A stretch of 64,000 nucleotides of DNA, taken from positions 62,001 through 126,000 of the forward strand of contig JAVBXP010000013.1 of the NCBI GenBank assembly GCA_030824495.1, read 5' to 3'. Position 1 is the first letter of the stretch; each line of letters begins with the position of its first letter. This document shows positions 5,127 to 22,956 of the stretch, in pieces. The translations under genes were made by a program, and so were the position numbers. This DNA comes from a bacterium. GTDB taxonomy: Bacteria > Pseudomonadota > Alphaproteobacteria > Caulobacterales > Caulobacteraceae. The notes beneath the pieces were generated by a model. That model searched no databases, was not told the origin of the DNA, and saw nothing but the letters and a program-made list of their open reading frames with translations.

Positions 5127-5203
5127 GGGCGGCTAGCTCAGTTGGTCAGAGCACCTGGTTTACACCCAGGGGGTCGGGGGTTCGAGCCCCTCGCCGCCCA
5201 CCA
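5127..5203 (+). tRNA. tRNA-Val (anticodon UAC)
   Basis: All arms fold. The acceptor stem GGGCGGC pairs with GCCGCCC, the anticodon stem is CCTGG/CCAGG around loop TTTACAC with anticodon TAC at 5161-5163, and the T arm has loop TTCGAGC. The CCA end is encoded (5201-5203). Its 3' end is the insertion site of the integrative element that follows; the gene has been left intact. Confidence 0.97.
5178..5203 (+). repeat. attL: tRNA-side copy of the attachment-site repeat
   Basis: The last 26 bases of tRNA-Val including CCA. They match 22931-22956 except at one base (G at 5186, T at 22939), which is a variable T-loop position. Confidence 0.88.
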
Positions 5204-5267: not shown

Positions 5268-5289
5268 AGCATTGCATTGGCATTGCATT
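5268..5289 (+). repeat. tandem 11-bp repeats, left pair (probable integrase arm sites)
   Basis: Two head-to-tail copies of (A/G)GCATTGCATT sit between the tRNA and the integrase start. The same unit occurs twice, in the same orientation, at 22855-22876 near the other end. Paired short direct repeats flanking the core site are what arm-type integrase or excisionase sites look like; that role is inferred. Confidence 0.7.
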
Positions 5290-5298
5290 GGAGCCTGA

Positions 5299-7227
5299 AT
5301 GCGTTGGGGCATGTTCCGCTTAAGAGCTTTGGTAGATGGCCGCCGCACCGGGCCGGAGCGCGGAGTCTACTTCGCTCGTCGCGCAGTACCGCTGGCGGTG
5401 AAGGAGCACTTCCGTCACCCGAGGACTGGCAAGCTGCAAGCCGTGCTGGTCCGAAGCACAGGTGAGACAAGCTTCAAGACGGCTTCGCTCATCGCTGAGG
5501 AGATTTGGAGAGGCTGGGGGGCTGAGTTCGCCGCAGCTCTCCAGGTTGGATCAAGTCCGATTATCACGACTGAGGCCGCGATAGCCGCCATTGACCGATG
5601 GCGAGCGATGGAATGTGGGCTCGCGGCAGGAGCGGAGCGCCGTCGGAAGCATGAAGCGGCCCAGGCCGCCATCCTGGCTGACTATAAGACCGCCATAACC
5701 ACGGGCACATATCCAGGTAGTGATGAGGTCATCATCCTAAAACCGGGTTCCCCAGCAGACTTGAGTACGCCCCATGCGCCGATCGCTGGCGATTTCCTTA
5801 CCTGGGCAAAGGAGTATTTTGATCTGCATCCCCATGCTTCTCGGTCCATAGAGCGCCCACACGCCGTTTCTACACTTCTTGAGCGGCTTCAGGGGGCCAC
5901 CTGGGAGCCAATGGCTTGGGTTAAGGTCCCGGGCTTCGATGAAGCGCTGGACGGCGCTGTGGCTGCCGGTGGTGCGTTGGGAGCCCTGACCCCAGTGACG
6001 CGCGAGAAAATACGACCCGCCTTCGCTCGCGCCTTCTTTGAGGTCGAGCGTCACCGGGAGGCGGAGCGGTCCCGTGCAGCGTCGTTCTTAGCCGCGTTGA
6101 GCATCTCCAGTCTTACGGGGAGCCAATTGGTAGTGACCCCCGGCTCCGGCGCTTATCAGCCCCGTGAAGGCGATCGCACCGTCAAGGAGGTGATCGCCAT
6201 GTTCAAGCTGTCGAAGGGGAGGGACGCCGGGCTTCTAGAGAAGACGCACGGCTATGTCTTCCGGGCGCTGGAAGAACTGTTCGGGCCCGAAAAGCCGCTG
6301 CGAGCGGTAACGCGACAGGACGTTCGTGACCTCCTGGAGTTCCTAGCAACGCTTCCTAGCAATTCGTCGAAGATTTATCCGGGCGTTGATCTTCGAGAAG
6401 CGGCAAAGCGTGGGGCGGCCGACGGGAAGCCAACGTTGGCTCCGAACACGATCCGGAGCTACGCGATCTCGCTCAAGGGGCTGTTCGCCTTCGCAATGGC
6501 GGACGGATGGGCGGATTCGAACCCCGTTGATGGGCTAACTCCCACCAAGCTTAACAAGATAAAGCGCAAGGCGTTCGCCAAGGAGCAATTGGACGTGCTG
6601 TTCGGCGCGTTGACTAAGCGACGTGCAGCAAATTCGGCTTACTGGTGGGTGCCGGCTATCCTCGCATTCCACGGTGCCAGAGCGAACGAGATCAGCCAGC
6701 TTTTTGTCGAGGACGTGAAGGAGGTCGATGGTGTCGCCTACCTGGACATGACGTATTTCGACGACGACGGCGAATTGCTGGACCGCCGGACTCTCAAGAC
6801 AAGGCCAAGCGAGCGGTGCCTCCCTATCCATGACGAACTAGTCGCGGCGGGCTTCTTGGATTTCGTAGAGATGCGGCGGGCGACCGGGGAGGAGCGTCTG
6901 TTTGGCGACCTGCGGCTCAGCGGCCGCGGGTACTGGACGCATGAGTTGTCCAAGTGGTGGGGGCGTCACTGCGACGCCTGTGGGTATCCGGAGAAGGCCT
7001 TCGTGCTTCATTCGCTACGTCACGGCTGGAAGGACTCCGCGACCGCCAACGGGTTGTCGGACACGGTGATCAACGCCATCGGCGGCTGGGGCGCGGAAAG
7101 CGAGCGCGAAAAGTACGGCGATCAACGCACCAGGGCGAAGGTTCCTGAGAACGCCATTTTCCTCAATCGAGTGACTCTGGGGGGGTTTAAGTTAGGCCCA
7201 CCTAGGAGCGTTCCAGAGCCAATTTGA
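5299..7227 (+). CDS. int: tyrosine-type site-specific integrase
   Basis: 642 residues. The N-terminus (about 20-60, RGVYFARRAVPLAVKEHF) resembles the small beta-rich domain at the start of many long island integrases. A core-binding SAM-like domain lies at about 290-420 and the catalytic domain from about 430. The catalytic residues visible are Arg461 (GARANEIS), His571 and Arg574 (LHSLRHGW) and the nucleophile Tyr606 (EREKYGD). It should cut and rejoin DNA at the tRNA-Val 3' end to integrate or excise the element. The ATG at 5299 was chosen because the family domain starts immediately after it; the arm-type repeats directly upstream would allow self-repression. It looks intact. Confidence 0.94.
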   Translation: MRWGMFRLRALVDGRRTGPERGVYFARRAVPLAVKEHFRHPRTGKLQAVLVRSTGETSFKTASLIAEEIWRGWGAEFAAALQVGSSPIITTEAAIAAIDRWRAMECGLAAGAERRRKHEAAQAAILADYKTAITTGTYPGSDEVIILKPGSPADLSTPHAPIAGDFLTWAKEYFDLHPHASRSIERPHAVSTLLERLQGATWEPMAWVKVPGFDEALDGAVAAGGALGALTPVTREKIRPAFARAFFEVERHREAERSRAASFLAALSISSLTGSQLVVTPGSGAYQPREGDRTVKEVIAMFKLSKGRDAGLLEKTHGYVFRALEELFGPEKPLRAVTRQDVRDLLEFLATLPSNSSKIYPGVDLREAAKRGAADGKPTLAPNTIRSYAISLKGLFAFAMADGWADSNPVDGLTPTKLNKIKRKAFAKEQLDVLFGALTKRRAANSAYWWVPAILAFHGARANEISQLFVEDVKEVDGVAYLDMTYFDDDGELLDRRTLKTRPSERCLPIHDELVAAGFLDFVEMRRATGEERLFGDLRLSGRGYWTHELSKWWGRHCDACGYPEKAFVLHSLRHGWKDSATANGLSDTVINAIGGWGAESEREKYGDQRTRAKVPENAIFLNRVTLGGFKLGPPRSVPEPI

Positions 7228-7290
7228 CCCGCGGCCGGTGCCGGGCGGACGAGACTTGGGCGCGACTCAACCGTCGGCTCTCGGTCAAAG

Positions 7291-8457: not shown

Positions 8458-8569
8458 TCCACCAGTCTAGGGCGGCCCCCTAGCAAAAGGCTATCTAGCA
8501 TCGTCGATGCTGTTCAGGTTGGGCACGAGAGCCGCTCCTAATCCTCAATGCTAATGTGCTGACATCTCG

Positions 8570-8866: not shown

Positions 8867-8934
8867 GCCTTACTAGAACAAAAGTGGAACATTTACGCAA
8901 GCCGTGCTGGTCCGCGACGCACATGCGCGGCGCT

Positions 8935-9201
8935 TCACCCGTGCTTCGGCTTCCGGCCGCTCGGCAATGATTTTGGCCGCTCCGCGCCTTCGGGCGGCTC
9001 CACGAATAACTCCGCGAGGCGAACGTCCAGGGTTGCCGCGAGGCGATCCAATAGCGGCAAAGAGGGGTTTCCATGCTCCCTCTCAAGTTCGCTAATGTAG
9101 GCGCGGTCCACGCCCGAGTCCGCCGCGAGCCGCTCCTGCGACACGCCACGCTCCGCTCGGAGCCGCCTGAGATTCCACGCTAGAAGCGCGAGCCCGTCCA
9201 T
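8935..9201 (-). CDS. XRE-family transcriptional regulator
   Basis: 88 residues, almost all of it one helix-turn-helix domain: NLRRLRAERGVSQERLAADSGVDRAYISELEREHGNPSLPLLDRLAATLDV is the classic Cro/C1 pattern (recognition helix around DRAYISELE). A short basic tail follows. It is transcribed divergently from the 9283 gene with 81 bp between them, a natural place for it to bind. In an integrative element such a protein usually acts as the maintenance repressor; the target here is inferred from position only. Confidence 0.88.
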   Translation of the reverse strand: MDGLALLAWNLRRLRAERGVSQERLAADSGVDRAYISELEREHGNPSLPLLDRLAATLDVRLAELFVEPPEGAERPKSLPSGRKPKHG

Positions 9202-9282
9202 CGGGACAAGCGACAGATTCAGTCGTTCTTAATCCACGGGCCAATAGCCTACAGATTGTGAAAATCTCTGGGGCTTCTGTCG

Positions 9283-9528
9283 GTGGCAAACCAAGTTTAC
9301 TGCACATCATGCGGCACGGTCGGGAAGCCGCGCGTCCGTAATCGCGGCAGCAGCGCGATCGAGATATTGCTGTGGCTGCTGCTGATCCTTCCAGGCGTCT
9401 GCTACACGCTGTGGCGGATGGGTCGGAAGGACCGCTACTGCCGGACCTGCAACGCCCCTAATCCGATCCCAGCGGACTCTCCGATGGCTAAACGGCATCT
9501 CGCCGGCGCTGGGATTCAGCACGGATGA
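9283..9528 (+). CDS. small zinc-ribbon membrane protein
   Basis: 81 residues starting at GTG. It has an N-terminal CTSCG pair, one hydrophobic membrane segment (about 28-46, IEILLWLLLILPGVCYTLW) and a second cysteine pair CRTCNAPN, so the four cysteines could form one zinc ribbon on either side of a hairpin-like membrane region. Similar small zinc-ribbon/transmembrane proteins are common in phages and islands without assigned function. It overlaps the next gene by 4 bp (ATGA), so the two are probably translated together. It is divergent from the XRE regulator and may be under its control. Confidence 0.7.
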   Translation: MANQVYCTSCGTVGKPRVRNRGSSAIEILLWLLLILPGVCYTLWRMGRKDRYCRTCNAPNPIPADSPMAKRHLAGAGIQHG

Positions 9529-9938
9529 GATCGCAGCTCACTATCGCGCTTGCGCTCGCCGTTGCCGGCGGAAGTGCCCACGCCCAGGACGTCACTCGCT
9601 CGTACGAGTTTGAGAATGCTGGTGGCGCTCGGGTCCGCTGTATCGTCAGCCAGTACAGTAGTGGCGAGGAGCGCCAGATCGCGACAACCTACTCGCACTC
9701 GTTTGAGATTGATCGAGCGCCCACTCCGCACGCCTGGGCGGCATCTGGCTGCGAGGGCTTCGTTCGAGCCCAGACCCGCATGGTGTCGCCGCAAGAGCAA
9801 GCGAGACGCATGGGTGAGGTCGGGAAGTCACCTAGCTATTTTGGCAGCGGTGGATTGCGCGAGCAAATTGTCGAACTGATGTGCGCGGACCCAAAGAATG
9901 CGTCCGCTCCTGACTGCGTGGCGCGGCGCACAAGGTAG
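9525..9938 (+). CDS. hypothetical secreted protein
   Basis: 137 residues with a clear signal peptide (MRSQLTIALALAVAGGSAHAQ, cleavage after AHA), so it is exported. The mature part has four cysteines (RCIVSQ, GCEGF, LMCADP, DCVARR), enough for two disulfides in the periplasm. No known family was recognised. The 4-bp overlap with the zinc-ribbon membrane protein upstream suggests that the pair functions together at the inner membrane. Confidence 0.65.
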   Translation: MRSQLTIALALAVAGGSAHAQDVTRSYEFENAGGARVRCIVSQYSSGEERQIATTYSHSFEIDRAPTPHAWAASGCEGFVRAQTRMVSPQEQARRMGEVGKSPSYFGSGGLREQIVELMCADPKNASAPDCVARRTR

Positions 9939-9996
9939 TCGGAGGCCCCCGCAGCAGGATCGTGGGAGGATCAAACTCAACGACATACTCCAGCGT

Positions 9997-10605
9997 TTAG
10001 CGGGATGAGGGCACAGCCGCGATGCTGCCGCTCAGTCGTTCGAACGCTGTCCCCTGGAGGACAACCGTATGGCCACCACCGGTGGTGAGGGTGATCGTAT
10101 CGACGCTGTGCGCAACTCTTACGACCTCAGCAATCACTGTGGCGATCGCCGCGAGTTCCCGCTCGTCCTTGTCAGCGAGGCGTCGATCCCAGCGCTTTAG
10201 TGGGCCGGGTAGAAGGCTTTGAATGTGTTTTAGCGCGTCCAGCAAGCTCATGAAATTGGCTATGGCTGTGGGCAAAGGGCCAACTAGAGACGCCTGAACA
10301 GTTAGTGCGGCTTCCAGTAAAAATGCCATGGAGCCTGTTCGCGCGCTGACTAGCGACAGCTCGCTGCCAGGCAGCAGGAAGTCATCGTTTTCTTGTAGCG
10401 TCTCAGGCGCGATTTGGCCGACCTCAGGGTACGCGTCTCTGAAGGATACCGTCTCGCAAAAGTATGAGTAGAGCCGGCCTAGGTTCATGAGGAATCGGCC
10501 CGCGTGTTCGCAGTTCATGCCGCGGTGGCTCGTGAGCTCACCGCCGGATAGAACCACCTCCAGCTGGTTCGTGTGAATGCGGGGTCGATCTAGAGTCTCG
10601 TTCAT
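9997..10605 (-). CDS. hypothetical protein
   Basis: 202 residues, no signal peptide. The middle (about 85-125) is hydrophobic and helical (SMAFLLEAALTVQASLVGPL) and the end is beta-rich and Gly/Thr-rich (DTITLTTGGGHTVVLQG). I do not recognise a domain. The ATG is preceded by CAGGAA. It is divergent from the PLD-like gene at 10719 with a 113-bp shared upstream region, so the two could be co-regulated. Confidence 0.6.
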   Translation of the reverse strand: MNETLDRPRIHTNQLEVVLSGGELTSHRGMNCEHAGRFLMNLGRLYSYFCETVSFRDAYPEVGQIAPETLQENDDFLLPGSELSLVSARTGSMAFLLEAALTVQASLVGPLPTAIANFMSLLDALKHIQSLLPGPLKRWDRRLADKDERELAAIATVIAEVVRVAHSVDTITLTTGGGHTVVLQGTAFERLSGSIAAVPSSR

Positions 10606-10718
10606 CTATTCCTGCTCAGGTTGCGAGGGCCTGTGAAGCCCGAGAATGGGTGAGGTCGAGGTCAAGCCGGTCCGGACGTAAGATGGCCGCGGTGAGAAAT
10701 TAAGCTAAGCTGCTCCCT

Positions 10719-11444
10719 ATGATCTTGTCACCTGAAGCCCTGTACGTGCAGTTAGGGCAATTGATTGCTGAGATGCCCGACCTCGCAAAGCCTCTTGGCC
10801 AAGACGGCGGTCGCTGGCTCGGCCGCGCAGCAATCTTGGTGGATGCCGTCGGTGACGGTATTGATCCAATTAACTTCCGGATCGCCGCAGATCACCTGGC
10901 TGGTTACGGTCGGGAGACCCATGCACAAAAGATCGAAACGATTCTTTATCGGGCTCTAGCCAAAGCTGAACTGGCCGCGCCCACATCGGCGCAAGGCGCT
11001 TTTATACCGGCCGGTGCAGAACTTGACGCCTTTGCCGCCGTTGGAAGGGTTTTAAGCGCTGCAACTGAAGACATCCTGATTGTTGATCCATACTCAGATT
11101 CTTCGGCGCTAACTGCCTTCGCGGTACAGGCTCCCGCTGGCGTGTCGGTACGCCTCCTTGCTTGTGCGAAATCTCACAAGGCAACGCTCGCTCCGGCAGC
11201 CACAAGGTGGGCAGTGCAGTTTGGTTCGTCACGGCCGTTGCAAGTTCGGCTCGCTGCCAGCGGCGCTCTGCATGATCGGTTTATTCAGACCGACCACGCA
11301 ACAGTTTGGACGTTGGGCCAATCGCTCAATGGACTGGCTAAGCGTGCCCATACGACCATTATACGAGTGGATGCGGAAACGGCCGCTTTGAAGCGAGATG
11401 CGTACCAAGCAATCTGGGCGGAAGCGCTACCATTGGCTTGCTAA
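10719..11444 (+). CDS. PLD-like domain protein
   Basis: 241 residues. An N-terminal helical region (1-95) is followed by a phospholipase D-like half-domain: DILIVDPYSDSSAL at 118-130, a beta strand SVRLLAC, then LHDRFIQTD at 184-192 and WTLGQSLNGLAKRAHT at 197-212. In this subgroup the HxK motif reads HDR and the following TLGxSxNxLxKxA pattern is well kept. Such domains occur in stand-alone proteins of phages and islands as putative nucleases or as non-catalytic modules. Whether it is active cannot be decided, because only one HxK-like half is present and the lysine is replaced. Confidence 0.65.
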   Translation: MILSPEALYVQLGQLIAEMPDLAKPLGQDGGRWLGRAAILVDAVGDGIDPINFRIAADHLAGYGRETHAQKIETILYRALAKAELAAPTSAQGAFIPAGAELDAFAAVGRVLSAATEDILIVDPYSDSSALTAFAVQAPAGVSVRLLACAKSHKATLAPAATRWAVQFGSSRPLQVRLAASGALHDRFIQTDHATVWTLGQSLNGLAKRAHTTIIRVDAETAALKRDAYQAIWAEALPLAC

Positions 11445-11613
11445 GGGTGTTCACCCCGGCGATGCGCAGCCGAAGCTAAATTTGCTGGCGATACGCTTGG
11501 CGCCCCGTCAAAAAAAGTAGGCGAGGGGTGCCCCTCGGGTCCCATGCTATTTGCAGATTCAATGACCCTTCCCCCCGGGGGGCTGTGTAGGCGTCACTAA
11601 GCTTAGGTGGGCC

Positions 11614-12177
11614 TCACCCGGTCTGACGTTTTGCGAGATTGCGAAAAACGGTCGACCTGTTCACTTGCATCAACTTTGCTGCCTGCGGAACTGTTAATGC
11701 GCCAATCTCAATCTGCCGCGCGTAGTGCGCCCAGGCGTCCTCGCTGACCTTGGGCGGGCGGCCAAACTTGACGCCGCGGGTTTTGGCAAGCCTGCGGCCG
11801 TCCCCTGTGCGTTGAAGGATAAGGTCGCGCTCCCAGTCGGCTATGCCAGCGAAGAACGTCATTATCATCTTGCCGGTTGCGGAAGTTGTATCCGCCCAGG
11901 GCTCCGCGATCGAACGAAGTCCTGCCTTCCTTTCGTTTAACTCGTCAGTGATCGCCAGAAGGTTCCGTGTCGAGCGAGCCAGTCGATCAAGGCGGGTGAC
12001 TGTCACAACGTCGCCGGCTCGAAGGGTGTCTAGCATCCTTGCCAGCTCGGGCCGATCGAGCTTGGCGCCGCTAATCTTCTCTTCGAAAATCCGCTCGCAG
12101 CCGTCTGCCACCAGGGCAGAACGCTGATTCTGTAAGTCCTGCGCGTCTGTCGACACGCGCGCGAATCCAATCTGCAT
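11614..12177 (-). CDS. serine recombinase (resolvase/invertase family)
   Basis: 187 residues from the ATG at 12177, chosen because GGGAGGAC stands 5 bases before it. The N-terminal catalytic domain has the nucleophile Ser9 in GFARVSTDAQD, Arg67-type residues in VTRLDRLARS, and a long E helix, followed by a C-terminal helix-turn-helix (VPQAAKLMQVNRSTVFRNL). This is the small resolvase/invertase type, which resolves cointegrates or inverts segments by double-strand exchange at 2-bp staggered cuts. No transposase or terminal inverted repeats were found with it, so it seems to serve the island itself (dimer resolution) or to be a remnant of a lost transposon. Confidence 0.93.
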   Translation of the reverse strand: MQIGFARVSTDAQDLQNQRSALVADGCERIFEEKISGAKLDRPELARMLDTLRAGDVVTVTRLDRLARSTRNLLAITDELNERKAGLRSIAEPWADTTSATGKMIMTFFAGIADWERDLILQRTGDGRRLAKTRGVKFGRPPKVSEDAWAHYARQIEIGALTVPQAAKLMQVNRSTVFRNLAKRQTG

Positions 12178-12647
12178 CAAGTCCTCCCGCTAAGGACTAG
12201 CAGCGTTGCACAATTCGTCTCATAAGTGGAGTCTTTTGCGACTAATTAATGCGACCTCATTCTGTTGGGTTTGGGAGTGCACGTGCGCCGGTCGCACAAC
12301 TTACGATATCTGCGACGGGTTTGCGGGCGCAGGTGCCACCGGCGCATCGACATTAGAGTAGGCGTTGCCGACGGGTGGAGTACGTCAGGTCACGGCTTGG
12401 TGCCCAACCATCTGAGAGGGTGGCAGATGGGAGTTACGACCCTTTCCGGACTCCGGACTCGATGCCAAAAGCACACACTGCCTGGGATTTTTTCTTTTAG
12501 CTGCGAAGGCTAGTTGGTTGGCGGTTGTTCAAAATTGAAACCCCATCGGGGCTCAGTCCGCCGAAGCGAGTCCCGACTCCGGAAGGCCAGGCAAGAACCC
12601 TTAGATGGTAGGGTATTCAGGCCGGCGACGCGGAGCCGGGACTTGAC
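12178..12647. other. intergenic region upstream of the resolvase, no gene supported
   Basis: 470 bp between the starts/ends of two minus-strand genes. Near the resolvase, GTCGCA occurs twice in the minus-strand sense around TTAATTA (12230-12252), in a place where a res/inversion site would lie. A frame at 12265-12513 (+) exists but has an Arg/His/Gly-rich, non-protein-like composition. Short hairpins such as CCCCATCGGGG at 12541-12551 are present. Nothing else was recognised. Confidence 0.4.
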
Positions 12648-15600
12648 TTAAGTCTCGCCGTATCTGGTGTTCTCAACAGGAAACGGTGCAGCCGGCTCGC
12701 TGTAGTCGATCGCATCGCGGCGCAGGACAATGAAGCTGCCCCGTCCATGCCCAGGAAAGCCGTCCCAAGCGATCTCGTTCTTCTTCGAGCCAGGCACCGG
12801 GATCGCGATGTCGTGACGCACGAGTTCCTTTCGCAACGTGCGGTCGGAGGAGGTGGCGCCGGCGAGGTCGGACAGGCATCCGGCTCGGATGAGGTAGATT
12901 TCTTGGGACGTCAGGAGCGGCTTTTTCGCGTTCTTCCGTGCCGCGTTGATCTCGATGAACTTCTTGTGGTCCAGCGTCTCCGGCGATCCCTGAAGTTCCC
13001 GGTAGAGGTGACGAGGCGTGCCATCGATATAAGTCTCGTCGCGCCGGCAAATGGTGACATTCAAACGCGCGGCGATGTTCTCCCGCAGAGTGTCGATCGA
13101 TCGCATGACGGAGTCGCGGGGCGCGATGTCTGACTCCTGCGCGCCTTCCCACACTGTCAACGCCATCGTTTCGGCGTCAAAGCACTCCGGTAGCAGGTGA
13201 GCACTTTTCATCTCTTCGGCTGCGGTCCACAAGAGCGCGACAAGACCGGCTTGTCGGCGTCGCAAGCGCACCAACTTGACCCCGATGTCGCCCGGCATTC
13301 CGTGCCTCGCTAGAACCTCCACGCGTTCCTCAACTGCGGCCTTAAGCAGTGCGGGGTCAGCGAACCACCCATTGTCCGCCAAATGCTGGATATAGGCCGG
13401 CCCAGCATGGCCGAAGTTCTCATGGGTTTGGACAACCTTGCTCCAATTGGCGGTCAGGTCGGGCGCATCGTCCACGTTGATCGTAACGACCCGTGCGCTC
13501 AGTCCGTTCGCGGCTTGGATGCCCACCTTGGTCAGCTTTTGGCCAAGGCCAGTTTCGCCGGAGAAGCTCACGCAAGTCGCCCACTTTTGCATTCGTTGCT
13601 CGCCTCCGCGAGGCAACCGCCGACGCTTTCCCGTGCCAGCCTGGATCATGAAGGCGAGCTTCTCCAGTTTCTCCGCGCCACCGACGATCTGCTTGTCTTC
13701 GTCCAACGCCAAATAGGTGCCGGAGGCCTGTTCCAGCGGGCGTTCGAGCGCGTTGTCGGACGCGTTGATCGAGATGAAGAGACCAGAGCCGAGCTTCGGC
13801 TCCGCCCAAAGACCAATGCCGAGCTTCTGCCCGGTGGACTTGGCCGCCGATGAAGTACCCTCAAAGCTGAAGATTGGTGTGTCAAAGCCGCCAAGATCGA
13901 CAAGCGGTCCAACGGCTCCGAGGACGAGCGCGGCTTGCAGCGCGTGACCGCCCGACGCGCAAATGAACTCTGCGCCCTCCTTCCAAGCTTCGAGAGTCCC
14001 AGACCGCGCCTTGCAAGCCAATCGCGCTTGTGCGCTGAGCCCGACGTTGCAGTTGGTCAGTAGCGCCTCGCCGGTGGGCAAGATGAACGCGCCCTCCCGG
14101 ACGCCTGCTCGATCGTAGTGCAGCGCGCCGACAGGCTGGGTCTCGCGCAGGTAGCTTGTTAGCCAGGACTCGCCGTCGTGGGAGAAGCACAGGCCCGCCG
14201 CTCGCAATTGCTCCAGCGCAGGCGAACCCTTGCCCCGCACCAGATCGGCCGCTTGCACGTCAATAGCGGTCGGCGCCCCATACTCGTTTTCCATCGTGAC
14301 GCTTAGTGCACAGTCGCCCGTCTCCCCACGATCCGGATGGCGGATGCCTCCATTCAGCGTGAACAAGGTCGTCACGGGGGTGTCGGTGTTGAACATCCAG
14401 CGGCGGCCGGAATGCATGCGGAGAGTGATCTTGCCCCGTTCAGCTGGCGGTGGGCGATACCACGTTGGTGCCGCGGATTCCGCCGGTGCCGGAATGCTTG
14501 CAGCATTCTCGATCTGCCGAGCAGCAATCGCCGTCCGGATAATCGCCTTGGCGGCCACTTTTCCGATCTTGAGCGCGGCAGCAAAGGCCTCGATTGCGTG
14601 GGCCGTCTTCGCGACGGACAACTCAGCCGCTGCGATCATCGCAGCCGCCGCTTCAATTTCCTCGTCAGTGGAGTCCTTGGTCAACGCCGCTGTTTGGGCG
14701 GAGTAGTCGCGGCGGGCATCTCCTTGGCTGATGCGGAGAGTGCTCTCGTTATCGACGAGGGCGTTGTAGTCCGGGTCCGCCAACACCTCTTCAGAGAACC
14801 ACTCGTCCCTAAGCATCTTGCCTAAGAAATCGAGATTGGTCTTCCCTTGGCAACTGTCGTGCTGGCACTTGATCGTGAAAATGTCGGACGGACCGTCACC
14901 GGCGTTGACGGCGAAGCAACCGCGATCATCGGGGTCGCCGGCGTTCGAGTGGTCTTCGTCGAACGGACATTCGATGTCGATCTTAGATGAGCCCGCCGTA
15001 CGGATGCGATCATCCGCGAGGTCGTGGATCACGGCGACGATCTGGAAACCGTTCGACGACTGGGACGACCAGCGACCGAGCTTCTTGCCGTCGTCGGTCT
15101 TGGAGCGCGCCTTGGTCCTGGAGTTCTGTTCGACCTCGGCGGCAAGCACCTGGTCGAAGTTATCCATATCGCCCTGATCGCCCTCGCCGTCCAAATCGAG
15201 CGTGTGCCAGTCGAGCAGCGGTCCGCCGAAAATGGTGGTCTCGTGCGGGCGCTTGTCGGCATGGCGCGGGAAGTAGAACAAACGCGAGGGGTCAACGGCC
15301 GAGTTGTCCATCGGCAGATCGCCCAGCTGGCGCGCCAAAGCCCGGCAAACGGTGGCCCACATCTTCATGCCCTCGGCGTGGGTCTTTGCCACCTTCGTCG
15401 GATCGAATGCTTCCGACAATGGCATCACGATGCGGTGCTTCTCCATAGGAGGGTGATTGATGCAGGCCATCAGGCCTTCGGGGTCATGCGAGTCGCCGAC
15501 GTATTCTGCTTGGTCCAGCAGCCGGGCATCCCAACGCATCTGATCCTTCAAGAACGCCAGAACCGCGTCGTTTCCGAACTCCATATCGTTCTTGCCGCAC

Positions 15601-16580
15601 CACTTCACGATCTTGTCGCGGTTGACCTTGGAGGTGGTCTTTCCATGACTGAAGGTGGTGTAGCGCAGGGCGAGGCAACCAAGTTCGGCGAGCGCCGCGT
15701 CAATCTCATGCCCTGGCATGCCGACGTCGATATCGAGGCCGACGCCGTAGCACTTGGTGACGGCTTGCTTGCGGCGGTTGTCGCCGACGATCTCGCCCAG
15801 GACGAACCCAGGTCCATCCTTCTGCCTACCAATCGGGTGGCGTGCCAGGATCGCGATCAGCTTGGCGACCGACATGCGGTCGTTCTTCCACTTGGTCGAT
15901 TTGAAGTTAGCGCCCGTTGAGATCACCAACTCTTGCTGAAGCTCTGGCGCGTCTAGGTCGAACGGCGTCAGGAGACGCGCGTCGAGCAGGCTCCCGAACC
16001 CAGCGTCCGCCTGACTCTCGGCCATGCAGCCGTCACTGTCGTCGAAGATGTTGTTGATAGCGTCGGGAGTGTGGAAGGCCTCGGCGTCGAGATGGATGAG
16101 GGTCCAGCCATTGGCGCCAGGCGTTGGGATGGGTTCATCGATCTCGCCGCCCATACTCAGTGCAAGGGCCTCAACTTCGTGGCTTGGCGCAACGCCTACC
16201 TCCAGCGCATATGCGGTGATCAGGGTGGCCTCCTTGTGCAGGACGGCGGTCGGCGCCAACGTATATGTCGTCCACTCTTCAGGATCGCTGACGTTCTCGT
16301 GGACCGCGTAGAGGAAGGCGACGTTCTGCCCGGCGGTGGTGGAGACGTAGACCGGATTGCTGCCGGCCAATTTGGCGAAACTGTCGATCTCTTCGAGAGA
16401 TTGGACCTGTTTTTCTTGGTTGTCGGCGATCAGCGCAACCGGCTCGTCGGGGCATCCAGCGAACAGAGCTGAGAGGAACTGTGCGATCCCTGGGCTGGTG
16501 GGTTCGTGGCTTGTTGCGTTTTTGAAGAAAGCAGCAGAATTAGCGCGCCCATCGGCGCTCAGCACGTCATGAATTGACAT
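12648..16580 (-). CDS. large primase/helicase-like replication protein with DUF927 domain
   Basis: 1310 residues. The first part (about 230-480) has a polymerase/primase-like segment around GVGLDIDVGMPG (near residue 278) and KHRIVMPL. A metal-binding segment lies at about 535-570 (CPFDEDH ... CFAV ... KCQHDSCQG), like a primase zinc finger. From about 770 to 1040 it matches DUF927, a superfamily-3-like helicase: Walker A-like FEGTSSAAKSTGQ near 905 and Walker B-like YLALDEDKQ near 957. This layout is that of the combined primase/helicase replication proteins of P4-type satellites and plasmids. It probably starts replication of the excised element. It is the largest island gene, with AGGAAA before its ATG and AT-rich hexamer repeats about 95 bp upstream. 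Confidence 0.8.
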   Translation of the reverse strand: MSIHDVLSADGRANSAAFFKNATSHEPTSPGIAQFLSALFAGCPDEPVALIADNQEKQVQSLEEIDSFAKLAGSNPVYVSTTAGQNVAFLYAVHENVSDPEEWTTYTLAPTAVLHKEATLITAYALEVGVAPSHEVEALALSMGGEIDEPIPTPGANGWTLIHLDAEAFHTPDAINNIFDDSDGCMAESQADAGFGSLLDARLLTPFDLDAPELQQELVISTGANFKSTKWKNDRMSVAKLIAILARHPIGRQKDGPGFVLGEIVGDNRRKQAVTKCYGVGLDIDVGMPGHEIDAALAELGCLALRYTTFSHGKTTSKVNRDKIVKWCGKNDMEFGNDAVLAFLKDQMRWDARLLDQAEYVGDSHDPEGLMACINHPPMEKHRIVMPLSEAFDPTKVAKTHAEGMKMWATVCRALARQLGDLPMDNSAVDPSRLFYFPRHADKRPHETTIFGGPLLDWHTLDLDGEGDQGDMDNFDQVLAAEVEQNSRTKARSKTDDGKKLGRWSSQSSNGFQIVAVIHDLADDRIRTAGSSKIDIECPFDEDHSNAGDPDDRGCFAVNAGDGPSDIFTIKCQHDSCQGKTNLDFLGKMLRDEWFSEEVLADPDYNALVDNESTLRISQGDARRDYSAQTAALTKDSTDEEIEAAAAMIAAAELSVAKTAHAIEAFAAALKIGKVAAKAIIRTAIAARQIENAASIPAPAESAAPTWYRPPPAERGKITLRMHSGRRWMFNTDTPVTTLFTLNGGIRHPDRGETGDCALSVTMENEYGAPTAIDVQAADLVRGKGSPALEQLRAAGLCFSHDGESWLTSYLRETQPVGALHYDRAGVREGAFILPTGEALLTNCNVGLSAQARLACKARSGTLEAWKEGAEFICASGGHALQAALVLGAVGPLVDLGGFDTPIFSFEGTSSAAKSTGQKLGIGLWAEPKLGSGLFISINASDNALERPLEQASGTYLALDEDKQIVGGAEKLEKLAFMIQAGTGKRRRLPRGGEQRMQKWATCVSFSGETGLGQKLTKVGIQAANGLSARVVTINVDDAPDLTANWSKVVQTHENFGHAGPAYIQHLADNGWFADPALLKAAVEERVEVLARHGMPGDIGVKLVRLRRRQAGLVALLWTAAEEMKSAHLLPECFDAETMALTVWEGAQESDIAPRDSVMRSIDTLRENIAARLNVTICRRDETYIDGTPRHLYRELQGSPETLDHKKFIEINAARKNAKKPLLTSQEIYLIRAGCLSDLAGATSSDRTLRKELVRHDIAIPVPGSKKNEIAWDGFPGHGRGSFIVLRRDAIDYSEPAAPFPVENTRYGET

Positions 16581-17108
16581 TAAAGTTTCCTAGCGCCCGG
16601 AGGTACATGACCGTCCGGACGTTTTTGTTTGGATTGATTTTTGCTAGGACTAAGCTGCGCCTAAAAACTAGGGCTAATTCTAACTCTAAACCTAAATCTA
16701 CCGCGCATCGGTCAAGGACCGGGCGGCGATGACTGGAAGATGCCACGTATTTGCGTCGCGTCAAGAATTCCACGAGGGGCCCGGCCGCAAACCAGTAGGT
16801 GAGCGGCGGCCAGCCGCGACAGATCGTTCAGAACCACAGCCACCCAGCTGCGCGAGGGCGTCACCGGCGTGTCTAGTGCGGTGCCAGCTAGTGCCTTGCC
16901 CACTGTCGACGCACCGGACCGATTGATGGGCATCACTGACCGGCCCGGCAATCATCGAAGCGAGGATCGCCGAACTCCTCGCCATCATACAACGGGAGGA
17001 GGCGGGGGAGCTTCCTCAAGCCGATCTCTTCCAGATCACGACGAGCCGGCTCGGTCCTTGGAGGTGGCTCGGCGGTTTGCCGCATCCAGGGGAGACCGTG
17101 GTGGCACA
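16581..17108. other. upstream region of the replication gene, no gene supported
   Basis: 528 bp. The first 120 bp are AT-rich for this genome and hold the CTAANN hexamer run. The rest is GC-rich. A minus-strand frame at 16712-16951 is weakly protein-like (SWVAVVLNDLSRLAAAHLLVCG) but has no convincing ribosome-binding site, so it is not called. An origin or promoter for the replication gene could lie here. Confidence 0.4.
16674..16697 (+). repeat. tandem CTAANN hexamers upstream of the replication gene
   Basis: Four perfect-phase hexamers, CTAATT CTAACT CTAAAC CTAAAT, followed by CTACCG and preceded by a related CTAAAA at 16661. In a GC-rich genome this AT-rich run placed 94 bp before the replication gene is unusual and could be an iteron-like or unwinding element; the function is inferred. 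Confidence 0.5.
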
Positions 17109-17570
17109 TCAATTCCCCTCCCGCATGTTCGGTCCGAAAAACGCTCCGGCCTCATGAGCGACGATTGTGAGGACACGGTGGGCTGCGTCCGGCGCTCCCA
17201 AGAACACTCTTGGATGCCCGCCGATCCGCAAATGACGGCCCGTGAGTTCAACCAACATTGTTCTTCGACGTTCGGGTTGTTCTTGGGACAGGACAAGTCG
17301 CTCGGGGTGGCCGTCCCTATCCGTCCTCAGGTCTAGATCGGCGCGGCAGGCCTCTGGTGGTGAGTTGTGGGTAAGAACTATGCCAACCACCACTACGATT
17401 AGCCCGATGGTCTCGTTCAGGGTCTTGGCGCTCCCGCGCCCTATCAACGGACCGGCGAGCTTTCCATACAAGGGGCCCCACCGATTATCCCAGATCGAGG
17501 TTGAGGCCCCTGCGATCTTGTCACCCGCCATGTTCGGTGTGGCGGGGGCTGGGTGGCGTGACGCAGTCAT
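17109..17570 (-). CDS. hypothetical membrane-anchored protein (third gene of an overlapping operon)
   Basis: 153 residues when started at the ATG of 17570, which overlaps the stop of the AlpA-like gene by 4 bp (ATGA); this overlap is the main reason for accepting it, because a longer upstream frame would run deep into that gene. It has one transmembrane segment (about 51-66, ETIGLIVVVVGIVLTH) with a short N-terminal part and a hydrophilic, arginine-rich C-terminal part. No family was recognised. It is the last gene of a three-gene minus-strand operon that points towards the replication gene. Confidence 0.5.
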   Translation of the reverse strand: MTASRHPAPATPNMAGDKIAGASTSIWDNRWGPLYGKLAGPLIGRGSAKTLNETIGLIVVVVGIVLTHNSPPEACRADLDLRTDRDGHPERLVLSQEQPERRRTMLVELTGRHLRIGGHPRVFLGAPDAAHRVLTIVAHEAGAFFGPNMREGN

Positions 17571-17761
17571 CGGCAGGTCCCGCTCTGTTGACTTGCGAAG
17601 AACTCCGCCACCTGTGGCCGTGACCACATCGGCGGCGCGCTGCGCGATGCCCGGACGTAGCCTGGAAAGGTGCCGCGCCGGCTAAGGTGCTGGAGATAGT
17701 GGCGTTGCGGCAGGCCGGGATAGGTCTCTTTCAGCGTTTCATAGGTCACGAAGTCGGACAT
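17567..17761 (-). CDS. AlpA-like helix-turn-helix regulator
   Basis: 64 residues. It fits the short MerR/AlpA-type winged helix: an N-terminal TYETLKETYPGLPQRHYLQHLSRRGTFP helix pair, then YVRASRSAPPMWSRPQVAEFF, where the aromatic/Trp-containing wing is typical. AlpA-type proteins regulate integrase or replication genes in P4-like elements or act as excisionases. The ATG at 17761 shares one base with the stop of the upstream gene (TGATG), and its own stop overlaps the start of the next, indicating translational coupling. Confidence 0.7.
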   Translation of the reverse strand: MSDFVTYETLKETYPGLPQRHYLQHLSRRGTFPGYVRASRSAPPMWSRPQVAEFFASQQSGTCR

Positions 17762-18126
17762 CAAGTGTCCGCCTTGTTGGCGAGGAGCAACTTGTCAGCC
17801 AACGCCCTCCGCGCCTCCTTTCGGCGTTTCGCACCCTCGGCAGGCAACATGTCCGGGACAGGCTCGAATGGTTTTCGGCGAGAAGCTCGGTGCTGCCGAT
17901 CCTCGGCGACGATCTCGGGGATGATGTGGTCGAGCGCGAATGTCACTGGAGGTGACCCGTCGGGCATGTGTGGGACGTTTCCGCTCAACAGCGCACCCTT
18001 GGCGATCAGTTTCTGAACGATGCGTTCGGCGTGTTCAGCGAAGGGGTGAAGGCGGGGCCAGCGTTGGACCTCTGAGGCAAGGCGTTCGGCCAAGCGAACT
18101 TCGGCAGCGGGGCTAGTTGCAGACAT
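17761..18126 (-). CDS. hypothetical protein, first gene of the AlpA-like operon
   Basis: 121 residues from the ATG at 18126, chosen because GGAAGG stands 8 bases upstream; a longer frame back to a TTG at 18168 has no ribosome-binding site. The protein is helical and charged: a VRLAERLASEVQRW start, a central FALDHIIPEIVAEDRQHR and a strongly basic KRRKEARRALADK end. No known domain was recognised. It probably belongs to the control or replication module of the island because it is coupled to the AlpA-like gene. Confidence 0.6.
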   Translation of the reverse strand: MSATSPAAEVRLAERLASEVQRWPRLHPFAEHAERIVQKLIAKGALLSGNVPHMPDGSPPVTFALDHIIPEIVAEDRQHRASRRKPFEPVPDMLPAEGAKRRKEARRALADKLLLANKADT

Positions 18127-18707
18127 AGAGACATACCTTCCGAACATTCGCTGAGGAATGAACGTCAAGAGAATGGTGTGAAATCGGCGGTTGTTAAGGC
18201 TCGCCGCAAGCCAGCGTCGATAGCCCCGCTACCAACAGATCAGTACATATCAAAAATTTCTAGCAATGTAAAGAATTCGTTTGGAACGTTGCTGAATATC
18301 GAGGAATTCGCGCATTTCCTCGCCGCGGGGTTCAATTACTTTCCTGCGTTGACTCGTAGGTACTTGTGAGTACCGCGGGCTTTTTGTCTGGCAGTGCATC
18401 TCCACGCGTCGGTCTGGGCAAACGCCACCCGGGCCCGACCTCGAACGAAACGGGAACGGCAGAGGTCGCAAGCGTGACGTCATTCACCCCGGCCGGGGGT
18501 CCATGCGACTGCGGGTAGTGGTCGAAAGGATGCCATGGATGCGGCGGTTGTGCTCATCCCCCCATCCTAGGCCGGGCTGAGCCCCGGCTTTAGTAGCGGA
18601 CCACCGGAGCTGGCGAGCAATCGACCTCGGCGAGGAATTGGCCTTCTAGCTTGAGCTTAGAGCCCCACTCCAGATGGAGGCGCCGGGCTAGTGCCGATTG
18701 CCAACCG
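18127..18707. other. intergenic region between the AlpA-like operon and hamB, no gene supported
   Basis: 581 bp. The part near 18170-18360 is AT-rich and holds the probable promoter for the leftward operon. The part near 18480-18590 is GC-rich, with the palindrome CCCCGGCCGGGG at 18488-18499 and a 6-bp GC hairpin at 18571-18588. Frames at 18178-18369 (+) and 18250-18483 (-) lack ribosome-binding sites and protein-like composition. No terminator with a T-tract was found for hamB. Confidence 0.4.
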
Positions 18708-20807
18708 TCACTCCTCGATGTCGTCGGAATGGGGCAGGGCATCGATAATCCACGACACCTCGGTCTCGCTCAACCGAACGTCTGCTCTATCGGCGAGGTG
18801 CCTTAGTCTTGCTCCGAGCGTGGCCACGGTGTCGTCGCGCCGAAGAAATCTCTCAGAGATTTGGATTGGCACGCCCTGTTCCTCCAGCATCTTCAGTGTG
18901 TCAGCCCGAAACCAGCGCGGCATTCCGGCAAGAAACAGCTCGTAGTTGGAGGACCCACCAGCTTTGCGAACCAACAGATCAATCACCGCGAAATACTCCG
19001 GCAAGCTGTATTCTGTAGCGCGGAGAAATTTGAAGACGCCATCGATCTTCTCGGCGTCTCCCTTGAATGAAGATGCATGCCAGTGGAAGAAAGCGCGCAT
19101 CGTATCTGCGGTTCTAAGTTGATTCAAATATAACGCAAGTTGCTTATAGCTATAAACGCCAAAATCGTTAGCTGCTTTTACGTGGCAGATGATCTCGCAA
19201 ACGGCAAGTAAATCCTCGTAACGTGGCCATGCGGACCACTGAATACGTGTCCCGTTCTTCATCCGCCCAGCTACCAGCTCCCTCAAAATAAGAAGGGTGT
19301 CGAAGCCAATAGAAGAGAAGCGTCTGAGTTCGGTCGGCGTAAAGCCAACCCGATCCGCCATGTCGTTCACCCTGTTGTCGATTTGGGGCGTTGAGTCCTC
19401 TTCGTCGACGTGGATCACGAACTCGTCGGGGGCGTCATCAAGGTCGCCAAATAATGGAGCGGTGACATCGACGCCGATATCTCCGGGAGGAGCATGGAAC
19501 AGAAAAACGTTGCCCACATGATGCTGCCCCAGGCGTCCAGCTCTCCCTTTGATGTTTGCAAAGGTGAAAAAGTCGAAGTCCCTCCGGGCGATCTTCTTGT
19601 CGTAAATCAGCACGGATTTGGCAGCAGTGTTCACACCCTCGATAAGGGTCGATGTGCAGATCAGTACCGGAAGCTTCTTGTCGTTGAACAGGCGGACGAA
19701 CCGCGAGGCAAGGGCGCGGGGAACGCGCCCATGGTGAACTCCGACGCCGCAAGCGACTGCGTCGCTGACCTCCCAGCCTGGGCCATAGTTTTCCCCCATC
19801 CAGGCTGCCAACGCTTTGCCATCGCCGATCGCTTCGTTTTCTTTCGTGAGCTTTTTCGCGATCTTGTTGGCGCGATCTGGGGAGGAGACAAATATTAGCG
19901 CCGGCCAGTTCGTCTCTCGGTAGGCTTCTTCATTGAGGCGGAGCTCCTTGTTTTGGACCTTGTTTAAATCGAAGGTGTCGACCGCCACGGTGGAAAAGCG
20001 AGTTTTTAAGAATTCGAACTTCCATCGACTGTCATCAGAAAGACTAACGCTATCGATGTTTGGACCGAGAAAGAAGAATTGTTTCGACTTTGAAAGTAAC
20101 TTATAGACCGCCGCGTTTAATGTAACGCTTCTTTCGTCGTGTCGTGAGGGGTCAAGTTTGTAAAATTCGTCCACTACGACCAAATCTAAGTACCCCAGGT
20201 CGTCTCTATTTATAAGGCGTTCCTGAGTGCCTAGGAAAATTACCTTGTCGCGCGTCGCTTGCTCAGAGTGGTGCATGAGGACATCGAACTCATCCCCAAA
20301 CCGCCTGACCAGACGGCGCCTGAATTCGTCCAAAAGGGCGATTGTTGGTAGCACTATCGCGCAGCGCTTGAACTTCCCTGAAATAAGTAGGGCATCCACC
20401 AGCAGACTTTTGCCGAAGCTTGTCGGTGCGCTGAGGATGAGATTGTTTCCAGCCAGCAGTGAATTGAGGGCGGAGACCTGCTCTCTGTGAAGCGCAACGC
20501 TAAGCCTTGGAATTGTCGCTGCTTCAGCGACCAAATCCTCCCGGACGTCGGCTGTAGCGCGATCGATGTAGTTCCAGAGGCCCACTGATCGAGCGAGGGC
20601 GCTATAGGCTTCGCGAAAACTATCTAACTCGTCTTTGCGCCCCATTAGATCGGCGAGCCGCGGAATGGCATTCAGAAGAACTGGGCTGTCCGCAGCTTCG
20701 TCCTGGATCGCAGCCGAAGCTGCCTGAAAAATCTCAAAGATTTGGATTTTTAGTGGTGCGCCAGACATCGCACCGACAGCCCGCCAGTCGACGTCGCCAA
20801 GGTTCAT
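18708..20807 (-). CDS. hamB: Hachiman defence helicase HamB
   Basis: 699 residues, a superfamily-2 DEAD/DEAH-type helicase. The motifs visible are Walker A SAPTSFGKS (Ala127-Ser134), IVLPTIALLDEF (motif Ia), VVDEFYKLDP (motif II, DEFY in place of DEAD, 213-216), VGVHHGRVPRALASRFVRLF (about 355-375), CTSTLIEGVN (384-393) and the arginine-finger motif FANIKGRAGRLG (417-427). In Hachiman, HamB is the ATP-dependent helicase/translocase that senses unwound or damaged DNA and holds the HamA nuclease in check. It overlaps hamA by 4 bp and follows it, as in known hamAB operons. It looks intact. Confidence 0.88.
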   Translation of the reverse strand: MNLGDVDWRAVGAMSGAPLKIQIFEIFQAASAAIQDEAADSPVLLNAIPRLADLMGRKDELDSFREAYSALARSVGLWNYIDRATADVREDLVAEAATIPRLSVALHREQVSALNSLLAGNNLILSAPTSFGKSLLVDALLISGKFKRCAIVLPTIALLDEFRRRLVRRFGDEFDVLMHHSEQATRDKVIFLGTQERLINRDDLGYLDLVVVDEFYKLDPSRHDERSVTLNAAVYKLLSKSKQFFFLGPNIDSVSLSDDSRWKFEFLKTRFSTVAVDTFDLNKVQNKELRLNEEAYRETNWPALIFVSSPDRANKIAKKLTKENEAIGDGKALAAWMGENYGPGWEVSDAVACGVGVHHGRVPRALASRFVRLFNDKKLPVLICTSTLIEGVNTAAKSVLIYDKKIARRDFDFFTFANIKGRAGRLGQHHVGNVFLFHAPPGDIGVDVTAPLFGDLDDAPDEFVIHVDEEDSTPQIDNRVNDMADRVGFTPTELRRFSSIGFDTLLILRELVAGRMKNGTRIQWSAWPRYEDLLAVCEIICHVKAANDFGVYSYKQLALYLNQLRTADTMRAFFHWHASSFKGDAEKIDGVFKFLRATEYSLPEYFAVIDLLVRKAGGSSNYELFLAGMPRWFRADTLKMLEEQGVPIQISERFLRRDDTVATLGARLRHLADRADVRLSETEVSWIIDALPHSDDIEE

Positions 20808-21649
20808 TGGAGCCCTTTCAGCCTGTTGTCGAACGCATCGACAAGGGCCGCTTTGGCCGCGAGCGGTATGTAAACGAGGACCACTCGAACGGTTTCGGTC
20901 AGCCCGCTGCGGATAAGGCGTTTAACAAGGTAGTCCGCTTCGGCTTTGATCTTCGCCAGGTAGGCGGCGTCGGAGAGTTTCGCCTCCAGGGCGCCAGCGC
21001 TGTTACATGAAATGCCTATGACGAAGACGGCATTCTTCACCAGTTCGTCGAGGCTCGCGCTTTTCCGAAATAGCGACGCGATTTCCTCGTACCTAGGTGT
21101 CGACTTCGGAATTTGGGGGCCAAGCAGGACCTTCTGGTTCGCGAGAAAGCCAGCATCAAGGTGGGCTTTAACCGATGTGATGGCATCCCCAATGGCGTCG
21201 GATGCACTCTCGTATAGCTTTGATTCTCCGAGCCAGATTTCCGGAACTTGGCCGTCGATCAGTCGGACGTGCACCATGTCAAAAGCCTTAACTACGTCAT
21301 TGGAGGATGACTTGTAGAAGACACGCGGGCTGATTGGTATAGTTCCGAAGTATTCACGGCATACCGCATGAAGGGCTATCTCGCCGGCTTCGCCGCGCTT
21401 TTCATATTTCTTGCTTGTATAGACGCGTACGGCTGCTTGATTTAATTTTACTAAAATGTTGCCGTGATGGGTGCGAAGCTCGTCTTCTGGAAGCGCGTAT
21501 TCGGGTAGCCACTCCACCAAGTGGAATGCGAAGCCGCTAGAGCGCCATTTTTCAAGCTCGAATCCCGCACAGTAGACTTCGACGTTGTCGCCAACCTGGA
21601 CTGCAAGCTTTGCTAAAAAGCGATCAGGTTTATCGTCGTAAACAGACAT
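20804..21649 (-). CDS. hamA: Hachiman defence nuclease HamA (DUF1837)
   Basis: 281 residues matching the DUF1837/HamA pattern: GEAGEIALHAVCREYFG near 86-102, then FYKSSSNDVVKAFDMVHV and IWLGESKLY. Together these give a PD-(D/E)xK nuclease core with Glu90, Asp124, Glu142 and Lys144. HamA is the DNA-degrading effector released when HamB is activated by phage or damaged DNA, leading to abortive-type defence. It is the first gene of a two-gene minus-strand operon, with GGTGGGA before the ATG; its upstream region is shared with the divergent membrane-protein gene at 21834. Confidence 0.88.
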   Translation of the reverse strand: MSVYDDKPDRFLAKLAVQVGDNVEVYCAGFELEKWRSSGFAFHLVEWLPEYALPEDELRTHHGNILVKLNQAAVRVYTSKKYEKRGEAGEIALHAVCREYFGTIPISPRVFYKSSSNDVVKAFDMVHVRLIDGQVPEIWLGESKLYESASDAIGDAITSVKAHLDAGFLANQKVLLGPQIPKSTPRYEEIASLFRKSASLDELVKNAVFVIGISCNSAGALEAKLSDAAYLAKIKAEADYLVKRLIRSGLTETVRVVLVYIPLAAKAALVDAFDNRLKGLQ

Positions 21650-21833
21650 AGAATCCCACCCCTGTAGTCACGATACACGTCAGGCGAAGCATTGCCAGTT
21701 GCGGTTGTGGCGTGGCTGCACCTCAGCATCCTTCGGTGTCGGAGGCTGGTTCCCGGCGCGGATGGTGTTGGGTGAGAAATGGATAGGGCGTCTCCGACCT
21801 ACCTTGCAGAGCCGAGAGGCTGTACGGGCGAAG

Positions 21834-22619
21834 ATGGCGACTGTAGGAAGCGAATTGGTAAAGGGGCGTTCCGCAGTGGAAGTGAGCAAAAATGTTCCTG
21901 CGGGAAACGAGACCAAGAATGCGCACCGTCTGTTCATCGCCGGCCTGGCGGCAAGCACCACTTACGTAGTCGGCATGAGCGTCTACGCGTGGCGGGTGTG
22001 GGGAAACATGTTGCACATGTCGCCCGACGAGTTCGCGACGTTCCTTTCCGGCGTGTTCGCCCCGCTGGCGTTTCTCTGGTTGGTATTGGGCTTTCGACAG
22101 CAGGGCGACGAGCTTCAGAACAGTGCGCGTGCGCTTTGGCTCCAGGGTGAAGAGCTACGCAACTCTGTCGAACAACAACGTCAGCTTGTCGAGGTCACCC
22201 GCGAGCAGCTTTCCGCCGAATATGCTGCGCGAGTTAGGGAAGAGGAGGAGGCGGATCGAGTTGCTCAGCCTCAACTCCTTTTGACGGGAGTTGGTGGCAG
22301 CTACTCGGGGCCAAAAAGGACGTTGACCCCGCAGCTTAGCAATGCGGGACCAACTTGTACGGACATGCAGGTCATCATCGACGGCGTCATCATGACCTCC
22401 GCAAACCTGTTCCCGGAGGGTGCCTCGATGCCTCTCCGCTTCGAATACAACTCGCCAGAAGAAGTGCAGCCGCTTTCGGTGATGGTGAAATATACTGATC
22501 GGCGCGGAAACCGAAGATCGCAATCGTTCGAAGTGCCCGTAGACGAAACGGGAAGTCCCTATAAGGACCGCACGCTCGGCTCAGCAATCAAGCTGCCGGG
22601 TGTTCAACAGTCGGCCTGA
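21834..22619 (+). CDS. hypothetical membrane protein with coiled coil
   Basis: 261 residues from the ATG at 21834; the frame stays open upstream, but that part looks unlike protein. Two membrane segments lie near residues 32-55 (FIAGLAASTTYVVGMSVYAWRVW) and 64-84 (FATFLSGVFAPLAFLWLVLGF). A heptad-rich coiled coil follows (about 86-140, QQGDELQNSARALWLQGEEL and onwards), then a beta-rich domain of about 110 residues. This arrangement recurs in uncharacterised proteins of prophages and islands. It is divergent from hamA with 184 bp between the starts. A link with the defence system is only positional. Confidence 0.7.
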   Translation: MATVGSELVKGRSAVEVSKNVPAGNETKNAHRLFIAGLAASTTYVVGMSVYAWRVWGNMLHMSPDEFATFLSGVFAPLAFLWLVLGFRQQGDELQNSARALWLQGEELRNSVEQQRQLVEVTREQLSAEYAARVREEEEADRVAQPQLLLTGVGGSYSGPKRTLTPQLSNAGPTCTDMQVIIDGVIMTSANLFPEGASMPLRFEYNSPEEVQPLSVMVKYTDRRGNRRSQSFEVPVDETGSPYKDRTLGSAIKLPGVQQSA

Positions 22620-22854
22620 TCCGGGCTTAGGAACGCGGCAATATGCTAAGTTTCGCGTTGAGTGGCCGTCTTACGAGTTCGCCCCAGTTGGCCGCAAAGC
22701 CGCCAATGGCAGGGTGCAGCTAGTCTGGTCGCTGCGAGGAGTTCGGCTGGTGCTGCGGCGCTGAAAAAGCTAATTTCAACTGTAGCTGCTAGGACTGAGG
22801 CATTTGGTTTGCACCATTCGGTGGACCTCCGTCAGAGGTTAAGCGGGTCATTTC

Positions 22855-22876
22855 GGCATTGCATAGGCATTGCATA
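22855..22876 (+). repeat. tandem 11-bp repeats, right pair (probable integrase arm sites)
   Basis: Two head-to-tail copies of GGCATTGCATA, 55 bp before the attR repeat. They differ from the left-end unit only at the first or last base and have the same orientation. Confidence 0.7.
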
Positions 22877-22930
22877 ATTGGGGTCTGATCGTCACCCGAG
22901 AAGCCATAAATTTAAGGAAATCAGACGCGA

Positions 22931-22956
22931 GGGTTCGATCCCCTCGCCGCCCACCA
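22931..22956 (+). repeat. attR: far-end copy of the tRNA-Val 3' end
   Basis: 26 bp identical to 5178-5203 except one base. Ends with CCCACCA, like the tRNA with its CCA. No other tRNA part is present, so this is the element junction and not a second tRNA gene. Confidence 0.88.

Follow-up and report, generated by a model that had tools for sequence, protein, structure and literature searches.

The hamA and hamB genes

Two adjoining genes occupy positions 18708..21649 on the reverse strand of the window, i.e. the whole stretch of 64,000 nucleotides that was analysed. The first, hamA (20804..21649, reverse strand), codes for a stand-alone nuclease of 281 residues belonging to the DUF1837/HamA group of PD-(D/E)xK enzymes. 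The second, hamB (18708..20807, reverse strand), codes for a short AbpB-like superfamily-2 helicase of the Ski2/Hel308 type, 699 residues long. The stop codon of hamA and the start codon of hamB share the four bases ATGA (20804..20807, reverse strand), the junction reading ...CCAATGAACC... The gene order, the ATGA overlap and the intactness of the pair, all put forward in the initial annotation, were confirmed: both frames are full length and every motif is present. The identical overlap of four bases was found in 38 of the 95 related pairs retained for comparison. In all 95 of them, loci without a HamA match having been dropped beforehand, hamA adjoins hamB, the two genes overlapping by up to 35 bases or lying up to 196 bases apart.

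HamA is matched by the Pfam HamA model (E 1.5e-37, 130 bits for a cut-off of 25) and by the PADLOC HamA1 model PDLC00170 (E 7.6e-104), while a scan with NCBIfam gave no match. The initial annotation had called for searches with HamA/DUF1837 and HamB profiles and had made its reading depend on a significant DUF1837 match to 20804-21649, which was thus obtained. The residues that it had named as catalytic, Asp124, Glu142 and Lys144, are all in place and complete the D-(G)ExK motif. They are invariant in 64/64 aligned stand-alone HamAs, in an alignment that sets the window copy beside 63 others drawn from the 80 complete stand-alone HamAs. In the predicted structure of HamA (pLDDT 92.5), Asp124 directly precedes a strand at residues 125-129, and Glu142 and Lys144 lie within a strand at residues 137-146. 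Such a placement of the catalytic residues around strands is expected of a PD-(D/E)xK core. When solved chains were searched by sequence, the sole Hachiman match of HamA was 8zue_A, a weak one (E 3.2e-4). Searching the PDB with the predicted model gave three matches of probability 1.00, all from Hachiman complexes: 8zue_A (E 9.1e-8), 8vxy_A (E 8.8e-4) and 8vx9_A (E 1.2e-3). The underlying superpositions are loose (TM by query 0.65, 0.50 and 0.52, respectively; rmsd 5.7-9.0), and identity to 8zue_A over the aligned fold is 14%.

HamB is matched by the PADLOC HamB1 model PDLC00180 (E 1.9e-188) and is a DEAD/Helicase_C protein by Pfam; the NCBIfam scan returned helicase matches below cut-off only. 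The superfamily-2 motifs described at first are found where expected: Walker A (SFGKS) at residues 130-134, DEFY at 213-216 and GRAGR at 421-425. The DEFY box had also been presented as a deviation from the usual DEAx, a view that does not hold. DEFYK is the norm, being present in 93/95 related helicases, E. coli AbpB included, and in 63/63 rows of a wider helicase alignment, and DEFYKL is invariant in the first ten relatives (10/10). The HamB of the ECOR31 Hachiman system is itself reported to carry DEGH and not DEAx (PMC12278908). As for GRAGR, it is indeed present in the window HamB, but the constancy implied by the initial annotation is not observed among the relatives, where 51/95 have GRAGR, 34/95 have GRSGR and 10/95 have neither.

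Among solved structures, the best sequence match of HamB is E. coli AbpB (8zue_B, E 1.8e-76), whereas ECOR31 HamB (8vx9_B, 1174 residues) is matched far less strongly, at E 2.6e-9; the window HamB is therefore assigned to the short AbpB-like kind. Its AlphaFold model (pLDDT 90.4) likewise retrieved 8zue_B at the top of the PDB matches (E 2.5e-28; 26% identity over the fold alignment); Hel308 and PolQ helicases come next, and the ECOR31 HamB-DNA entry 8vxa_A appears at rank 27. Ahead of the helicase core, helices are predicted at residues 8-13, 16-36, 42-57, 59-75 and 88-97, and this helical stretch over residues 8-97 of the model may correspond to the sort of region by which HamB proteins are reported to hold HamA.

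A simple sigma-70 scan of 18400-22100 gave one promoter-like site, located inside hamB, for a chance mean of 1.7, and none upstream of hamA; promoters and terminators together yielded nothing beyond chance. The pair could on this account be a genuine but silent copy carried by the mobile element described below, or a decaying one, given that the HamA frame is short or split in four related loci (L026, L045, L047, L080), where either decay occurs or the contigs are cut. We regard this as unlikely. The scan was not tuned to the host organism, neither window frame is truncated, all motifs are kept, and both proteins have conserved counterparts in another genus of the family (66% identity for HamB and 59% for HamA).

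The tRNA-Val island

The pair is located in an island of ~17.8 kb (5175-22956) bounded by a repeat of the last 29 bases of a tRNA-Val gene. The tRNA-Val(TAC) gene, identified by ARAGORN at 5127..5203 (forward strand), is the integration site. Its 3' end forms the left attachment repeat (5175..5203, forward strand), which matches the 29-nt right repeat (22928..22956, forward strand) at 27/29 positions. GC content is 0.535-0.540 over 19001-22000 and about 0.64 outside the island. An empty site was found in a congener (genome G1296, locus L132), in which the two flanks, 98.7% identical over 1204 bases on the left and 92.6% over 1023 on the right, meet with an exact 29-base overlap. A tRNA-Val gene lies within the stretch examined in 9/14 congener loci and outside it in the five others. 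No match to the island was obtained in any of these 14 loci, each just 2.4-3.9 kb long. The tRNA island originally proposed is thus well founded: an integrase gene adjoins the tRNA, a direct repeat bounds the island, GC content is lower, and a congener has the site unoccupied.

The integrase, of the tyrosine-recombinase type, is encoded next to tRNA-Val at 5299..7227 (forward strand; PHROG phrog_1, 5.2e-25; Pfam Phage_integrase at 0.017, below cut-off). A serine recombinase of the resolvase/invertase type is encoded at 11614..12180 (reverse strand; Pfam Resolvase, 1.1e-38; phrog_125 DNA invertase, 4.2e-58) and a primase/helicase-like DUF927 protein at 12648..16580 (reverse strand; Pfam DUF927, 7.1e-21; phrog_8841 DNA primase/helicase, 3.5e-18; phrog_10537, of unknown function, 1.3e-182). 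Virion proteins were not recognised among the island proteins scanned. We take this layout to resemble that of P4-like satellites.

Other island genes are less readily assigned. A PLD-like protein encoded at 10719-11444 (forward strand) has a weak Pfam match, a VPA1262 N-terminal model below cut-off and a match to the PADLOC candidate PDC-S05 (4.8e-13), and is possibly a further defence gene. A 388-residue protein encoded at 7291-8457 (reverse strand) matches phrog_1128 (7.8e-39) and, weakly, permuted papains of the YaeF/YiiX kind. Beside hamA and divergent from it, a gene for 306 residues at 21699-22619 (forward strand) matches phrog_9267, of unknown function (2e-28); its product had no match among the ORFs of the 33 close-branch locus ids. 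A conserved third gene was sought by comparing 13 island proteins with these ORFs (at least 80 residues; two of the 33 locus ids, L003 and L019, designate one place, and several loci end at contig ends). Four blastp lines were obtained, involving only the integrase and the resolvase, so that no accessory gene is supported.

Since HamB is structurally near the Hel308 and PolQ repair helicases, one could conceive of a housekeeping nuclease-helicase pair acting in DNA repair with no role in defence. This is very improbable, the distribution of both genes being rare and patchy. With the window's own genome included in all counts, HamA was found in 4/299 genomes of the family, one of them a Cap4 fusion (L017), and in 16/398 genomes sampled from the phylum, and in 0/14 control genomes. 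The helicase was found in 6/398 genomes of the order at E <= 1e-40, and at E <= 1e-25 in 6/398 genomes of the phylum and 3/385 of the class. The island location and the empty site in the congener also argue against a housekeeping function, and the HamA domain has been tabulated from anti-phage systems (PMC10952713). On mobile elements, 73 plasmid records match the helicase, just four of them over at least 80% of its length, and ten match HamA, eight over at least 80%. Four phage records match the helicase (one over at least 80%), and an alignment-based scan of viral contigs gave 17 loci, several of them very distant.

Comparison with characterised systems and proposed mechanism

The Hachiman system of ECOR31 (HamAB; PDB 8vx9, 8vxa and 8vxy) likewise consists of two genes and combines a Ski2-like helicase bearing an N-terminal helical region with a HamA whose D...ExK motif (E138/K140 there) is like that of the window HamA (PMC12278908). 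The two helicases differ in size and motif, ECOR31 HamB being 1174 residues long with DEGH and the window HamB 699 residues long with DEFY. In this last respect the window HamB is closer to the short helicase of the E. coli K-12 AbpAB system (abpA b2628, abpB b2627/yfjK; PDB 8zue, titled as a Hachiman system): AbpB has 729 residues, carries DEFYK and has PDLC00180 as its best PADLOC model, as the window HamB does. Both systems also reside in comparable elements, AbpAB in CP4-57, an integrated element that also carries an integrase and a DUF3987 gene, and the window pair in an island with an integrase and a primase-like gene.

The window pair might then be AbpAB proper, in which a Cap4 nuclease fused to a dead HamA would do the cutting alongside AbpB. 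The kinship of the helicases, AbpB being the nearest solved structure by sequence and sharing the same PADLOC model, speaks for it. The nucleases however do not correspond. K-12 AbpA has 538 residues comprising a Cap4 domain (1e-55) and a HamA domain with EFE at the catalytic positions, and its best PADLOC model is PDLC00153 as against PDLC00170 for the window HamA. The latter is a stand-alone protein in which a Pfam scan of the 281 residues found HamA only and no Cap4, with D, E and K present. Fused AbpA-type pairs moreover branch apart from the window pair in a quick helicase tree. This assignment was rejected as highly improbable.

Even less probable is a nuclease-protease Hachiman (HamMAB), in which HamA would serve only as a scaffold for a protease. 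Such builds do occur in the same short-HamB tree as the window pair (L012/L124). They are described as a protease fused to a dead HamA with a separate MBL-type nuclease (PMC12799240), and neither component was found at the window pair: scans with Pfam, PADLOC and PHROG detected no trypsin-like protease domain or MBL-type gene in HamA or in the scanned neighbours. The next gene, 21699-22619, lies on the opposite strand and has no Pfam match over cut-off, no PADLOC match and one PHROG match of unknown function. HamMAB was therefore rejected on domain content.

The Hachiman (HamAB) identity first proposed is supported by the family models, the gene order, the overlap, the fold matches to solved complexes and the quick helicase tree, which places the helicase among HamB/AbpB proteins and not outside HamB. 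The locus is an ordinary intact copy of a known anti-phage system. Very probably, the pair is an intact two-gene Hachiman, with a short AbpB-like HamB and a stand-alone, catalytically complete HamA, that would act through a DNA-sensing, abortive-infection mechanism. Literature searches on Hachiman with Caulobacter, sphingomonads and tRNA islands turned up nothing on this locus among the records listed, and a search by the PDB code of the Hachiman structure found no paper.

The most likely function is that of a helicase-gated DNase in abortive-infection defence, complex formation, trigger, DNA cleavage and defence all being projected from characterised relatives. In ECOR31, HamB is reported to restrain HamA, to sense DNA ends or damage and to hydrolyse ATP, thereby releasing DNA degradation by HamA (PMC12278908). 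By analogy, the window HamB would bind and hold HamA while surveying DNA. In the course of phage replication, DNA damage or free single-stranded 3' ends would arise and drive ATP hydrolysis by HamB, activating the HamA DNase, and the ensuing DNA degradation would result in abortive infection. Details may differ here, given the low identity to the solved Hachiman proteins and the looseness of the HamA superpositions.

Relatives of the pair and loss of the HamA site in fusions

Relatives in genomes and viral contigs were found by alignment-based scans, single-sequence scans of both with HamB having found none. For short HamBs, the best 80 of 530 candidate loci were kept. From 115 loci gathered in total, the 95 related HamA-HamB pairs were obtained after dropping six loci that repeat a place already represented (L001, L002, L015, L016, L018, L019), the four loci with a short or split HamA frame, one locus without a helicase match (L017), five without a HamA match (L091, L103, L109, L112, L113) and four exact duplicates (L059, L062, L067, L098). 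Long N-terminal extensions of HamA in L022, L030, L069 and L096 resemble by eye a read-out of the upstream frame and not domains. L030, the one of these four scanned with Pfam, contains HamA only and no further domain; with its extension apparently spurious, it was placed among the stand-alone HamAs.

The three positions are occupied by D, E and K in 83/84 stand-alone HamAs and in 0/11 fused ones, the positions in the latter depending on one MAFFT alignment. Pfam scans covering all of the eleven fused proteins except L010 and L094 detected Cap4 in seven (L115, L102, L101, L100, L089, L099, L076), and also in L017, whose locus lacks a helicase. L013, cut at the locus end, showed HamA alone by Pfam. 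In L012 (whole in L124), a trypsin domain is fused to a motif-less HamA and an MBL-type gene lies upstream.

In the quick helicase tree, computed without bootstraps and with an outgroup for which, among others, a long-branch warning was issued, the window HamB pairs with L003 (66% identity) in a branch of 30 rows with an SH-aLRT of 100. All HamA partners in this branch are stand-alone and have D-E-K. K-12 AbpAB belongs to a single branch apart from this one (100), which gathers ten of the eleven fused pairs (L100, L101, L102, L115, L089, L094, L099, L010, L076 and L013). Cap4 is confirmed in seven of them, and L012 stands elsewhere in the tree. The dead HamA site varies between sub-branches of the fused branch (NNF, DTE, EFE, GLR, RRY, SRR), as expected of relaxed constraint after a single fusion event.

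This pattern fits the published view and adds nothing beyond it. AbpAB has been proposed to be a variant of Hachiman in which HamA is dead, and the presence of this dead domain beside a second nuclease was called enigmatic (PMC12278908). Loss of the HamA motif upon fusion was already reported for protease fusions, virtually all of which lack it, other fusion types being described as having arisen once each (PMC12799240). A contrary view, put forward as speculation, does not equate AbpAB directly with Hachiman (PMC10732053). Whether the branch of the window preserves the condition ancestral to AbpAB, Cap4 having been gained once by a lineage whose HamA was active and whose HamA site then decayed in several ways, appears to us evenly balanced. 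If it does, pairs like that of the window would constitute a natural "before" sample for understanding why AbpA keeps a dead HamA. As one more intact Hachiman locus, the window pair has little significance alone beyond correcting the idea of an aberrant DEFY box; as a clean case of an AbpB-like helicase paired with an active HamA that stands alone, it is a useful comparison for AbpAB. The sole exception among the 84 stand-alone HamAs is a distant one, L111, which has DQK, the catalytic Glu being replaced by Gln, and is encoded beside a helicase of 788 residues.
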